Shown here in pieces: positions 10,320-15,143 of a stretch of 44,524 nucleotides of DNA. The notes beneath the pieces were generated by a model. The model did not search any database and had not been told where the DNA came from. It saw only the letters and a program-made list of their open reading frames with translations. The first letter of the stretch is position 1, and each line of letters begins with the position of its first letter. This DNA is from Candidatus Aminicenantota bacterium (GTDB taxonomy: Bacteria > Acidobacteriota > Aminicenantia > UBA2199), in NCBI GenBank assembly GCA_029938635.1, contig JAOZUQ010000018.1, forward strand, positions 1 through 44,524. Direction: 5' to 3'. The translations under genes and the position numbers were made by a program.

Positions 10320-11030
10320 TTATAAGTATTTATTAAGGATATTTATTATTTCATTGTTCTTTTCAATTCCGAGGTCTATTGCTTTAAAGAAAAGATCTTT
10401 TGGAATTGAACTCTCTTCAGCAAAACCTGTAACCTCAATGATATCTCCATCCTCATTGGAGACAATATTAATATCGGCATCAATATTGGAATCTTCCTCA
10501 AAATCTATATCAGCAAGAATTTCCCCGTCTTTAATTCCAATTGAGACAGCAGCTACAGGCTTGAATTCAGGGACTTCAAACAGCTTGTTCTCAAATACAA
10601 GATGTTTAAGCAGTTTCTTAAGTGCTATTACTCCACTATTAATTGATGCACACCTGGTTCCGCCATCAGCCTGGATAACATCCATATCAAGGAAGATACT
10701 GAAATCTTTGATCTTCTTAAGGTCAAACATATTTCTAAGGGAACGTCCGACAAATCTCTGGATTTCAATATTCCGTTTATCCATACGTCCGCCTCTTTCC
10801 CTCAGGAATCTTTGTTTGCCTGTAGAGCCGGGGAGCATTGCATATTCTGCACTAATCCACCCCTTTTTTTCACTTTTAGCGAAGAAAGGGACTTTTTCAT
10901 TAAACATTGCAGTACAGATTATCCTTGTGTTCCCCTGTTTGTATAGGAGTGATGCAGGCTGGTTTGTTATATAGTCCTCTTCTATCTGTATTTCTCTTAA
11001 CTCATTATTGCCTCTATCATTTGTTCTCAT
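10320..11030 (-). CDS. rph: Ribonuclease PH
   Basis: Phosphate-dependent 3'-5' exoribonuclease trimming tRNA 3' ends, usually a hexamer; 236 residues, normal length. Diagnostic blocks are intact: MLPGSTGKQRFLRERGG, MDKRNIEIQRFVGRSLR and DMDVIQADGGTRCASI. The ATG at 11030 has an AGAGGAAAT Shine-Dalgarno and overlaps the end of the upstream acyltransferase gene by 14 bases, so it is the last gene of the kdtA-lpxK-lpxL-rph operon. The structured repeat lies directly after its stop. Confidence 0.96.
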   Translation of the reverse strand: MRTNDRGNNELREIQIEEDYITNQPASLLYKQGNTRIICTAMFNEKVPFFAKSEKKGWISAEYAMLPGSTGKQRFLRERGGRMDKRNIEIQRFVGRSLRNMFDLKKIKDFSIFLDMDVIQADGGTRCASINSGVIALKKLLKHLVFENKLFEVPEFKPVAAVSIGIKDGEILADIDFEEDSNIDADINIVSNEDGDIIEVTGFAEESSIPKDLFFKAIDLGIEKNNEIINILNKYL

Positions 11031-11940
11031 TTATTTCCTCTTTTTTCTGGCCCTCTCTCTTCCTCCATCGGGCATGGAACCAGAACCAGTGGTCAGGATA
11101 TTCCCTGATCATATTTTCAATTAAACTCATGCACTTCTGTGTTAACTCTTTAATGTTCTTTTCATGATCGGGCCCTTTTTTGAAGTCCAGTTCTTTCCCG
11201 ATCTTGAGGAGAACTGAATCTTTTTGATAGGTCACGAAAAGGGGAATGACCGGAATACCTTTTTTCAGATAAAGTTGAGAAACCGTGGTAACAGCAATGA
11301 CCTCTTTCCCGAAAAAATTGACAGGGACCCCTTCTCTGGTAATTGTATTTTGATCGACAAGGAGATAGATCAAACCGTTCTCCTCCGTAACCCTTATTAT
11401 CTTTCTGAGGGAGCCCTCCTTGTATATCATGTCTGATCCCATGAAGGCTCTGAATTTTTTTACAATTTCTTCTGTCAGGGGGTTATCCATCTTTCTTGCA
11501 ATGCTGGAGATCCGAAATCCCAATTCTCTGTGAAGAATGAAAGGGATCAGTTCCCAATTTCCAAAATGGGCGGAGAAAAGGATTGCACCCTTTCCTTTTT
11601 TTAGAACATTTTGAATGTTTTCAAACCCCTCTACCTTCAGCTCCCCTACAACTTTATCAGGATCTTTCCCACCGAAAAGATAAATAATATCAATGAAGAC
11701 CGATAAAAAATGTTTGAAAATTCTTTTTTTAAGTAAATGTCTTTCCTGATCCGGAATTTCAGGGAAAGCGATCCTGAGATTTGAGTCGACAAGCTTATTA
11801 TATCTTTTGCCTGCAATGGAGAACACTCCGAGTGCAATTAAACTAAAGATTTTTTTTAGAAATAAAGGTGATATTTTAATAAAAAATATAAACATTTTGA
11901 GGCTGAAATATTCTACTCTATACCTTATATTGTGTTTCAT
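11017..11940 (-). CDS. lpxL: Lipid A late acyltransferase (LpxL/HtrB family)
   Basis: Inner-membrane enzyme adding a secondary acyl chain to Kdo-lipid A; 307 residues, the usual size. It has an N-terminal membrane anchor (LKMFIFFIKISPLFLKKIFSL), the catalytic H-x4-E motif H125-FGNW-E130, and later blocks typical of the family (LLVDQNT, GVPVNFFGKEV, DHWFWFHARWRKR). LpxL and LpxM cannot be separated by eye; the symbol is for the family. The start overlaps the lpxK stop in ATGA. Its neighbours kdtA and lpxK catalyse adjacent lipid A steps. Confidence 0.9.
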   Translation of the reverse strand: MKHNIRYRVEYFSLKMFIFFIKISPLFLKKIFSLIALGVFSIAGKRYNKLVDSNLRIAFPEIPDQERHLLKKRIFKHFLSVFIDIIYLFGGKDPDKVVGELKVEGFENIQNVLKKGKGAILFSAHFGNWELIPFILHRELGFRISSIARKMDNPLTEEIVKKFRAFMGSDMIYKEGSLRKIIRVTEENGLIYLLVDQNTITREGVPVNFFGKEVIAVTTVSQLYLKKGIPVIPLFVTYQKDSVLLKIGKELDFKKGPDHEKNIKELTQKCMSLIENMIREYPDHWFWFHARWRKREGQKKEEINENK

Positions 11941-12881
11941 TTTGTTATTGAAAGTACATAGCCCTTAAGATCAAAGCTGCATTTTATCCTGTTCTTCACA
12001 TAAATTAATGGGAAGCCGTCTTTGATCAAATCTGAAATTTTGATGAAATCTTTGTAAGTACAAATAAGGAATTCTGCTTTTACATTCTTCATTTCCCTGA
12101 TTAGCAGTTTAAGATCATCCGGAGTATATTCATGATGGTCATTGAAGCTTTTAAATCCTTTCAGATTCAGTTCGTCAAGATCCGATCTGAACCGGTCATT
12201 ATCTCCCAGCGCTGAGAACCCATAAACAGGAAGTCCCCCCGGATCGGCAGGCAGGCCTTCCTGGGTTTGAAAAGAGGTGAATTCAAAAGAATAATATCCA
12301 TGATCCCCTGTTTTGCGGATATGGTATCCTGATTTCCCCCCTTTATAGTAAAGGATGATATCTTCCTCACTTGCCATGAACTTAAAATTTCTCAGATAAA
12401 AATAGTCATGTTCAGGATTTATCATCATAATTTTAAGGTCTTTTTTGATGTTGGTCGACTGAAAACCGTCATCCAGAATTACAATTTTATTTCCCCTCCT
12501 GATACTGTTGATAATTGATTTTTTCCTGTTCCTTCCGGTAAATATATCAACACCGGGGAGTTCTTCAGATATCATTTTTACTTCATCGCCGATCTCTTTC
12601 CATGTATGGTGATCTTTTACAATAGTTCCTTTTTTTTCGCTTAACGACCCATATCCTCTGGTAACGATCGAAAACTTCTTTCTGGATTCTTTTAAAATTT
12701 CGGCAATTTCCAATACCATCGGAGTCTTCCCTGTCCCGCCAAAGGATAGATTGTCGACTGAAATTATTTTAATCTCTTTATATTCCTGTTTCCCGAGGCC
12801 TTTTAGCTTCAGAACTATAAATGATCCGGATTTGTATAGTATGGAAATAAAATTTAAAAATGGAGTTGTTATTTTAGAAAT
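11937..12881 (-). CDS. lpxK: Tetraacyldisaccharide 4'-kinase, apparent ATT start
   Basis: Phosphorylates the 4' position of the lipid A disaccharide at the inner membrane. The first ATG (12719) falls inside the Walker A motif GGTGKTP and so cannot be the start. The frame is open upstream and encodes a normal LpxK N-terminus: an amphipathic helix (ITTPFLNFISILYKSG), then KIISVDNLSFGGTGKTPM. No in-frame ATG, GTG or TTG exists before the TGA at 12906-12904. ATT at 12881 has AGGGAGG seven bases upstream, an ideal position, giving 314 residues (typical about 330). An in-frame CTG at 12812 is the only other near-cognate candidate; it has no good Shine-Dalgarno and removes the N-terminal helix. RGYGS and DDGFQ are also LpxK motifs. 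The 5' end overlaps kdtA by 13 bases. Confidence 0.88.
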   Translation of the reverse strand: MSKITTPFLNFISILYKSGSFIVLKLKGLGKQEYKEIKIISVDNLSFGGTGKTPMVLEIAEILKESRKKFSIVTRGYGSLSEKKGTIVKDHHTWKEIGDEVKMISEELPGVDIFTGRNRKKSIINSIRRGNKIVILDDGFQSTNIKKDLKIMMINPEHDYFYLRNFKFMASEEDIILYYKGGKSGYHIRKTGDHGYYSFEFTSFQTQEGLPADPGGLPVYGFSALGDNDRFRSDLDELNLKGFKSFNDHHEYTPDDLKLLIREMKNVKAEFLICTYKDFIKISDLIKDGFPLIYVKNRIKCSFDLKGYVLSITK

Positions 12882-14113
12882 TTCAGCACCTCCCTTATAG
12901 AAAACTCAATTGCACCAGATCTTTTCATCACAGATCTTTTAGCTTTTTCATTTATTACTTTGATGTCCTGATTCTTTAAATTCATCAATATGTTCAGGAG
13001 TGATTCTCCGGTATCTGCTATCGTATATACGCCATTCCCTGTAAGTTCTTTTCCTATCGCCGGGAAATTATTGAAACATGGGCCTCCAATTATTTTTTTT
13101 CCGAAAATTGCAGGTTCGTAAAGATTGTGTCCTCCAATTGCCGGGTCGTAACTTCCTCCCATAACAATGACATTTGCTACTTTTATCAGTTTAGTAAGAT
13201 GGCCCATCTTATCAAAAATAATAATATCACTATTTGCCTGCTTATCTCTACTCCAGACATTAAATGAGATATTGCTCATTTCCAGAGATGAAGCCAGGTT
13301 ATCGGTCCGGTTCGTATGCCTGGGTGCAATCATTATGAAATATTTTTCAAATAGTTCTTTTAATACCGGAATAAAGATTTCTTCATCGGATGCATGAGTA
13401 CTTGCGAAGAGGATTATTCTTTTTATCGGCTTTTTTATACCAAGAAGTTCAAATATCTTATCCGGACTATCAATTTTCCCTGATACAGCAACAGCTTCAT
13501 CAGCTTTTATGTTTCCGCTTATTTTTATGGAGTTTTTTTCAGCCCCCAGATCGATAAATTTGTCTCTGTAATTTTCCTCCTGAAGGAGAAAAAGGTCAAT
13601 TTTACGGAAAAATTTTCTGATAAAGAACGAAAATCTTTTATATCTGCGAAAAGCCTGCTCCGAGATCCTTCCATTGATGACCACCATCGGTATGTTCATC
13701 CTGTCTGTTATTGATATCCAGTTAGGCCAGATCTCCAGTTCATTTAGAATGATTATGGAGGGATCAATTTTTTTTATGAATCTTCTTACTACAAAGGATA
13801 GATCGAAAGGGCCGTTGATGATATCGATCTCTTTGAATGTTTCTTTTGCAATTTTAAACCCGGAAGGTGTTGTAACAGAGAGGATGATCCTTTTATCTGT
13901 TTTGATACGAAGAAGAGAAATAAAACTTTCAAGACTTTTCACCTCTCCGACGGATACTGCATGGATCCATATTGTCCCCTTTTCATCCGGTTCGATATCC
14001 GGGGAGAATCTTCCTTTTATTATTCTTCTATATTCCGGTTTAAAAAAGAACTTTGGATTGAGAGGGATGTATATTAGCAGAATAAGTATATAAAGAGCAT
14101 CAAGGAAAATCAT
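12869..14113 (-). CDS. waaA: Kdo transferase
   Basis: Transfers 3-deoxy-D-manno-octulosonic acid to lipid IVA at the inner membrane; 414 residues, normal for WaaA/KdtA. An N-terminal hydrophobic anchor (ALYILILLIYIPL) precedes WIHAVSVGEVKS with the catalytic Glu57. ILNELEIWPNW and INGRIS belong to the N-terminal GT-B domain, and GGSYDPAIGGHNLYEPA to the C-terminal donor site. First gene of the LPS-rph operon. No Shine-Dalgarno; an extended -10 ends six bases before the ATG. Its last codons contain the Shine-Dalgarno of lpxK. Confidence 0.95.
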   Translation of the reverse strand: MIFLDALYILILLIYIPLNPKFFFKPEYRRIIKGRFSPDIEPDEKGTIWIHAVSVGEVKSLESFISLLRIKTDKRIILSVTTPSGFKIAKETFKEIDIINGPFDLSFVVRRFIKKIDPSIIILNELEIWPNWISITDRMNIPMVVINGRISEQAFRRYKRFSFFIRKFFRKIDLFLLQEENYRDKFIDLGAEKNSIKISGNIKADEAVAVSGKIDSPDKIFELLGIKKPIKRIILFASTHASDEEIFIPVLKELFEKYFIMIAPRHTNRTDNLASSLEMSNISFNVWSRDKQANSDIIIFDKMGHLTKLIKVANVIVMGGSYDPAIGGHNLYEPAIFGKKIIGGPCFNNFPAIGKELTGNGVYTIADTGESLLNILMNLKNQDIKVINEKAKRSVMKRSGAIEFSIREVLKFLK

Positions 14114-14119
14114 TTTTTA

Positions 14120-14128
14120 ATTATATCA
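14120..14128 (-). promoter_or_regulatory. waaA extended -10, likely leaderless
   Basis: Minus strand TGATATAAT, then TAAAAA and the ATG at 14113. The -35 region 17 bases upstream is only a run of T. The six-base distance to the ATG implies a leaderless mRNA. Confidence 0.55.
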
Positions 14129-14169
14129 CACTGAAATACTTGAAAAAAAACATATTGAAAAATTGAATC

Positions 14170-14198
14170 TTGACTTTTAGGTGTATTTTCAATATTCT
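14170..14198 (+). promoter_or_regulatory. Promoter of the radical SAM gene
   Basis: TTGACT (14170-14175), 17-base spacer, TATTCT (14193-14198), nine bases to the ATG at 14208. This also argues that the GTG at 14181, which lies inside the spacer, is not the start. Confidence 0.55.
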
Positions 14199-14207
14199 GA
14201 AACGCTG

Positions 14208-15143
14208 ATGGACAAAGGGAACATGAATATAAAATATGAAGAGTTCAAAGGTGAGTTCGTAAAGAATTGCCCATGTTCACCTGAAGCAGTTTCATGCGGC
14301 TACTACAATATGAACCTGCACAAAGGGTGTCCGTTCTCATGCACATATTGTATCCTGCAATCCTATCTTGAAAGCAAGGACCCTGTTTTCTATACAAATA
14401 TAAACCAGGCCAGGGAAGAACTTAAAAAAGCAGGAAAGAATTTGAAGAACATAAGGATCAGCACCGGTGAACTGTCAGATTCGCTGGCTTATGAAAATGA
14501 GAACAATTATTCTGAAATAATACTCAAAATACTCCATGGGTTTCCCAAGATAGTTTTTGAGTTCAAAACTAAATCTGCAAATGTACAAAATCTTCTTAGT
14601 AAAAAACCTCTTAAAAATATAGTTGTATCATGGTCATTAAATCCTGAGAGGATAATCAAAATGGAGGAGCATAATACTGCATCTCTACCGGAAAGGCTGG
14701 AAGCGATGAAAAAAGTCCAGGAAGCGGGATATAAGGTCGGCATCCACTTTGATCCCATAATAATAACTGATAACTGGAAAGAGGAGTATAGGGAGCTTAT
14801 TAAAAATATTTCCGGGATCGTCTCTCCTGAGAATATTGCATGGTGGAGCCTGGGAGCTCTCAGATTTCCCGAAGAACTGAAAGAACACATTTTTAAATAT
14901 AAGGATTCAAAACTTTTTTCCGGTGAATTGATCAAGGGATATGATGGTAAGTACAGATATTTTAAACCGCTCAGGAAAGAACTTTTCCTGTTTGTCAGAG
15001 ATGAGATTTACAAATCAATTTCACCTGACACCCCTCTCTATCTATGCATGGAGGATAACGAAATGTGGAACGACATCTTCCCCGACCTGAACCCCGATCC
15101 TGACATCATCAACAAATACCTATACGACCACGCAATGAAATAA
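14208..15143 (+). CDS. Radical SAM protein of the spore photoproduct lyase (SplB) family
   Basis: 311 residues from the ATG chosen here. The [4Fe-4S]/SAM motif C-x3-C-x2-C is seen in GCPFSCTYCILQSYL, the form used by spore photoproduct lyase-like proteins (GCP...C.YC.LQ). RISTGELSDSLAYE, KTKSANVQNLL, VVSWSLNPERI and GYKVGIHFDPII follow the order found in this family, whose characterised member repairs UV-induced thymine dimers. Many homologues occur in non-spore-formers, where the substrate is unproven. The start is set at 14208 because the frame's earlier GTG falls inside the promoter. Stands alone; no operon partner. Confidence 0.8.
   Translation: MDKGNMNIKYEEFKGEFVKNCPCSPEAVSCGYYNMNLHKGCPFSCTYCILQSYLESKDPVFYTNINQAREELKKAGKNLKNIRISTGELSDSLAYENENNYSEIILKILHGFPKIVFEFKTKSANVQNLLSKKPLKNIVVSWSLNPERIIKMEEHNTASLPERLEAMKKVQEAGYKVGIHFDPIIITDNWKEEYRELIKNISGIVSPENIAWWSLGALRFPEELKEHIFKYKDSKLFSGELIKGYDGKYRYFKPLRKELFLFVRDEIYKSISPDTPLYLCMEDNEMWNDIFPDLNPDPDIINKYLYDHAMK

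Follow-up and report, generated by a model that had tools for sequence, protein, structure and literature searches.

Where does translation of lpxK, the gene for the lipid A kinase LpxK, begin when its reading frame holds no conventional start codon ahead of the ATP-binding loop of the product? The question is raised by a locus of the Aminicenantes genome G000, contained in a window of 44,524 nucleotides, the whole stretch of DNA analysed here. The first-pass annotation of this DNA placed the start at an ATT codon. The comparison with related genomes makes it very probable that lpxK of this genus is indeed translated from AUU at 12881-12879, with the help of an extended Shine-Dalgarno (SD) sequence and probable coupling to the overlapping waaA gene, after the old ATG was lost. 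The relevant features are listed in Table 1.

Table 1. Features of the lpxK locus in the window and of the tamB locus elsewhere in G000
Feature	Position	Strand	Remarks
lpxK (tetraacyldisaccharide 4'-kinase)	11937..12881	-	314 codons from ATT plus stop; PF02606, TIGR00682, 4ehx
Proposed AUU start codon of lpxK	12879..12881	-	no in-frame ATG, GTG or TTG upstream of 12719; kept in G001; same position as the ATG of G007
Shine-Dalgarno AGGGAGG	12889..12895	-	spacing 7 to ATT; 9 bp with CACCUCCUU counting the next bases
GTT at the lpxK ATG place of most other family genera	12903..12905	-	waaA codon Phe TTT instead of Cys TGY
In-frame TGA closing the lpxK frame upstream	12906..12908	-	from the codon listing
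First conventional start (ATG) of the lpxK frame	12717..12719	-	just after Walker A GGTGKT
waaA (Kdo transferase)	12869..14113	-	stop TAA 12871-12869, 10 bases past the first ATT base; lpxK starts inside the last codons
LpxL/HtrB-like acyltransferase, downstream	11017..11940	-	ATG 11940-11938 overlaps the lpxK end (11937); same lipid A gene cluster
tamB (PF04357)	L076:768-4202, G000 contig C4	-	with L093, L094, L095, L096, L097

The lpxK reading frame

The product of the frame matches the Pfam LpxK family PF02606 with 161 bits against a cut-off of 27 (profile positions 4-314 of 328), TIGR00682 with 136 bits against a cut-off of 92 in the profile search, and the solved LpxK structure 4ehx with an E value of 1.9e-22. 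The frame is full-length and free of stops from the TGA at 12908-12906 down to the stop at 11937. A codon-by-codon listing of the minus strand from this TGA to the ATG at 12719 contains no ATG, GTG or TTG, in agreement with the first-pass annotation, which had also held that a complete family N-terminus is encoded ahead of the first ATG; the PF02606 match begins 7 residues past the ATT. The same annotation placed the first ATG inside the P-loop. This codon is indeed the one at 12719 but encodes the M of GGTGKTPM, just after the P-loop. The Walker A motif GGxGKT is retained in LpxK begun at ATT and lost from LpxK begun at ATG 12719, which would be too short for a working kinase, with the whole Walker A loop missing.

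The immediate surroundings of the ATT likewise proved to be as described. AGGGAGG (12895-12889), which lies within the final codons of waaA (TAA at 12871-12869), is followed by the seven bases TGCTGAA and then by ATT, and the GTG in the SD region (12889-12887) is out of the lpxK frame, being read in the waaA frame through VLKFLK to the TAA at 12871-12869.

Conservation within the genus

The codon in close relatives, a comparison that the first-pass annotation had suggested, turned out to be the same. The comparison is with G001, another species of the genus, which was assembled separately; its LpxK and that of G000 are 82% identical. G001 has the same ATT and likewise no conventional lpxK start ahead of the Walker A loop. 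The SD and the ATT are conserved: the 18 bases around the ATT, GGTGCTGAAATTTCTAAA, are identical in G000 and G001, and a search of 34 genomes found this pattern in these two only, once in each, at the lpxK starts. The overlap of waaA and lpxK is also kept in G001. G002, the remaining genome of the genus and 63% complete, gave no match to LpxK or WaaA, and the evidence at the genus level comes from two genomes; the ATT is kept in both members that hold lpxK and is absent from other genera.

Among 14 control genes shared with the G001 contig, which were judged by eye to be real genes, with many antisense or shadow open reading frames (ORFs) set aside, the conventional start falls on the same codon in both species for 13 and is displaced by one codon for the other (15267). 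Between positions +12 and +162 of the lpxK frame, 25 codons differ between G000 and G001, 16 synonymously and 9 nonsynonymously. Between -24 and -1, four codons have changed, three of them nonsynonymously (F/L, Y/N and G/R; codons read by eye), and the same changes in the waaA frame include two synonymous ones and one Arg/Lys replacement. Small as the numbers are, the pattern of substitution favours a start at ATT over one at GTT.

Loss of the ancestral ATG within waaA

Outside the genus, 25 lpxK loci of the family (L004-L028) were compared, in 22 of which the motif at the end of waaA is readable (contig ends truncate L007 and L008, and the motif did not capture L006). Of these 22 loci, 20 have an lpxK ATG that lies out of frame across a Cys codon of waaA (xxA-TGy, that is, TGC or TGT after A). 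In G000 and G001, waaA has GAG TTT or GAG TTC (Glu-Phe) in this place, and the lpxK triplet is GTT; the C-terminal stretch of waaA around the changed codon is homologous between the genus and its relatives. It looks as if a plain substitution in waaA destroyed the old lpxK start, the ATG having apparently turned into GTT because the Cys codon of waaA became Phe (GAG-TTT).

The Cys is likewise missing from G007, a more distant member of the family, whose lpxK begins with an ATG exactly 24 bases on, at the position of the ATT. In G000 and G001 (counting from ATT) and in G007 (counting from ATG), 47 residues precede Walker A, with an ungapped N-terminal alignment; in more distant members of the class, 45-46 residues do so where this is readable (G035 and G038). 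According to the first-pass annotation, the ATT would be refuted if relatives had a conventional start located elsewhere. Such relatives exist, namely the 20 loci described above, but their ATG is GTT in the genus; therefore, the comparison documents the loss and relocation of a start and does not refute the ATT.

The lpxK start has also moved in genus g4 (L006 from G005 and L028 from G011), in which waaA has Asp-Cys and the ATG is missing from its usual place. L028 departs from the common phase, L006 has GTG and TTG candidates just past the waaA stop, and the conventional codons of this genus are found further downstream.

Strength of the Shine-Dalgarno site

With the anti-SD taken as CACCUCCUU, the SD/anti-SD duplex at the ATT has an energy of -14.2 kcal/mol in G000 and -9.4 in G001, at a spacing of 7. 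None of 243 conventional starts of sampled G000 ORFs of at least 200 codons reaches -14.2 kcal/mol, whether the first or the best early start is taken, and -9.4 is reached by 29 of the 243 (first) or 41 (best early). As a measure of chance, 16-codon windows were taken from the interior of sampled G000 ORFs: among 2804, none has ATT, ATC, ATA or CTG behind an SD that reaches -14.2, and 78 have a near-cognate codon behind an SD at the strength of the sister species (-9.4).

The 3' end of 16S rRNA was not found in G000 with two sequence patterns applied to 34 genomes (0 of 34 with the first, 3 of 34 with the second). The second pattern located it in G010 and G012, of the same family, and in G041, of the same class. 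The ends in G010 and G012 carry GCTGGATCACCTCCTT, and the anti-SD of G000 was assumed to be canonical, as taken from these two family members. The local RNA fold at the lpxK start is unremarkable (z 0.81), and a search of positions 11000-15000 against Rfam gave no matches.

Proposed mechanism of initiation

Given such a site, the 30S subunit would be held at the start by the unusually long SD in the last waaA codons (9 bp with a canonical anti-SD), and fMet-tRNA would pair with AUU through the first two bases. We infer coupling to waaA, in that the AUU site is probably supplied by ribosomes that terminate this gene at the TAA, 10 bases further on. The ancestral lpxK ATG across the waaA Cys codon was lost upon the replacement of Cys by Phe, with the start shifted 8 codons downstream, and the use of AUU would lower the yield of LpxK.

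Other genes without a conventional start

The search for comparable genes covered 663,675 bases of G000 (about 22%), that is, the 44,524-nt window and 40 further stretches. In it, 550 ORFs (320 + 230) reached the minimum length of 100 codons, and the 40 + 24 with the longest start-free 5' parts were read; an AUU-started gene with a chance conventional codon near its 5' end is invisible to such a screen. Only lpxK and tamB, as judged by eye among the ORFs read, are convincing start-less genes. The other candidates had conventional starts lower down, were shadow ORFs, or lay at contig edges or N-runs.

In tamB of G000, no in-frame ATG, GTG or TTG occurs for 139 codons. All six genomes read have a T run early in the frame (nine Ts; 13 in G003). 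Upstream of the run, the +1 frame offers a GTG or ATG, at a distance of 29 bases in five of the six and of 26 in G003. When read with one extra base, tamB encodes a charged-hydrophobic membrane anchor, which looks like programmed slippage at a signal anchor. A run of at least nine A or T is found in 31 of 320 sampled ORFs and is not rare by itself.

Alternative explanations

Because tamB appears to slip, slippage had to be tested for lpxK as well. If ribosomes shifted by -1 as they approach the waaA stop, a WaaA-LpxK fusion would result and an lpxK start would be superfluous. waaA is the sole ORF in another frame that reaches the open lpxK frame, the needed shift is -1, the same lineage seems to use slippage in tamB, and an SD is present upstream, as it is at some programmed frameshift sites. 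Yet, neither an X XXY YYZ heptamer nor a homopolymer of at least five bases occurs between -24 and the waaA stop in G000 or G001, the A4 at which a single slip might occur is interrupted in G001, which has AAAC, and G007 and other genera have separate conventional lpxK starts. All starts in other frames were enumerated in both species, together with heptamers and homopolymers, and none fits; lpxK, unlike tamB, has no T9-like run. We consider a frameshift very improbable. An error of sequencing or assembly that hides an ATG or GTG, an alternative raised by the first-pass annotation, or decay of the gene, is even less probable. Although G000 is a draft assembly of 137 contigs, the separately assembled G001 has the same bases, and the full-length, stop-free frame, with its mostly synonymous differences, argues against both error and decay.

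An improbable candidate for initiation elsewhere in the frame is the GTT at 12905-12903, where the old start was; AGGGAGG would then be merely waaA coding sequence. This triplet is kept in G000 and G001 exactly at the ATG place of the 20 relatives and is preceded by a weak SD (-5.1 and -5.0, respectively), and a GTC start has been shown in Streptomyces sigR (PMC5472188). Against the GTT stand an SD far weaker than that at the ATT (-14.2 and -9.4), the nonsynonymous character, in the lpxK frame, of three of the four changed codons at -24 to -1, with the waaA frame preserved, and the need for wobble at codon position 1. The last is disfavoured by an in vitro survey of IF3 in which only Watson-Crick pairs are tolerated at codon positions 1 and 2 (PMC10158994). 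Near-cognate codons past the ATT, such as ATA 12872 and CTG 12812, are in frame; however, ATA 12872 is CTA in G001 and has an SD energy of -5.1, the positions further on, up to +54, lack an SD, and a later start shortens the N-terminus relative to the family, so that the use of such a codon is highly unlikely. The AUU at 12881-12879 remains the preferred start.

Relationship to known near-cognate starts

The E. coli infC gene, which encodes IF3, starts with AUU, and IF3 reportedly represses this start. lpxK resembles it in that AUU is the start of an essential gene. The first-pass annotation drew this parallel, and here its interpretation divides: the ATT start is well supported, by the same ATT in G001 and the ATG of G007 at this position, but the analogy with autoregulation of the infC type fails. 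IF3 represses its own AUU, which LpxK, not being an initiation factor, cannot do, and ATG is the infC start in each of G000, G001 and G002, the three genomes of the genus, as read from the IF3 profile match.

Across the class, 7 of 30 infC loci (L041, L043, L044, L047, L049, L050 and L052) have no ATG, GTG or TTG upstream of the IF3 match and carry ATT, ATC, ATA or CTG candidates, as expected for infC of the AUU type. In 9 of the 30 (L054, L056-L061, L063 and L064), an ATT directly precedes the ATG (ATTATG); all of these belong to the family of G000 and none to its genus, as if an old AUU had been kept beside a new ATG.

E. coli pcnB also has an AUU start and is similar to lpxK as a gene other than infC, although it belongs to another pathway; we know of no overlapping gene at its AUU. 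In Staphylococcus aureus, cvfC1 (AUU) and ccpN and infC (both AUA) start behind very strong extended SDs, as detected by Ribo-Ret and reporters; the output of the AUU and AUA starts is about 10% of that of AUG in reporters in poor medium, and the ccpN start is conserved between S. aureus and B. subtilis (PMC13009471). A conserved AUU or AUA start behind a very strong extended SD is common to these genes and lpxK, which differs in being a lipid A gene known here from sequence, with the ATT genus-wide at most and the SD within an overlapping gene. The GTC start of Streptomyces sigR is repressed by IF3 (PMC5472188) and offers a likeness in that a non-canonical start keeps one product of a gene cluster low; it differs in the codon, in belonging to a regulator gene and in having been demonstrated experimentally.

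Natural AUU starts are very rare: among closely related prokaryotes, a comparative study gives a single switch from AUG to AUU in 61,358 ancestral AUG starts (PMC5622118). The switches described there resemble that of lpxK in that AUG was lost and a strong SD probably compensated for it, and differ in having occurred at the same site, whereas the lpxK start moved 8 codons. Initiation at non-canonical codons is reportedly inhibited when IF3 is in excess (PMC2268962). In the openly accessible literature, we found no published AUU start of lpxK, and we found no literature on the N-terminal helix of LpxK. AUU initiation is a known kind of start, for which lpxK would be a new gene.

Implications

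It is conceivable, but rather doubtful, that AUU was selected as a throttle, with LpxK, which comes from the same cluster as WaaA and the LpxL-like acyltransferase, held low and sensitive to IF3, and thereby to the growth state, such that 4'-phosphorylation of lipid A follows translation capacity.

For annotation, the consequence is that gene finders limited to ATG, GTG and TTG would cut LpxK after its ATP-binding loop. For the evolution of start codons, the new lpxK start most likely arose through the loss of the old one inside the overlapping waaA, to judge from the sequences compared. The locus would thereby illustrate how a start can be lost in steps: the start was part of an overlap between two coding sequences, was destroyed as the neighbouring protein changed, and gave way to a near-cognate codon rendered usable by a strong SD. 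In well-studied bacteria, lpxK is an essential gene of lipid A synthesis, so that it is well suited to testing whether the supply of the lipid A kinase is set by a weak start codon.
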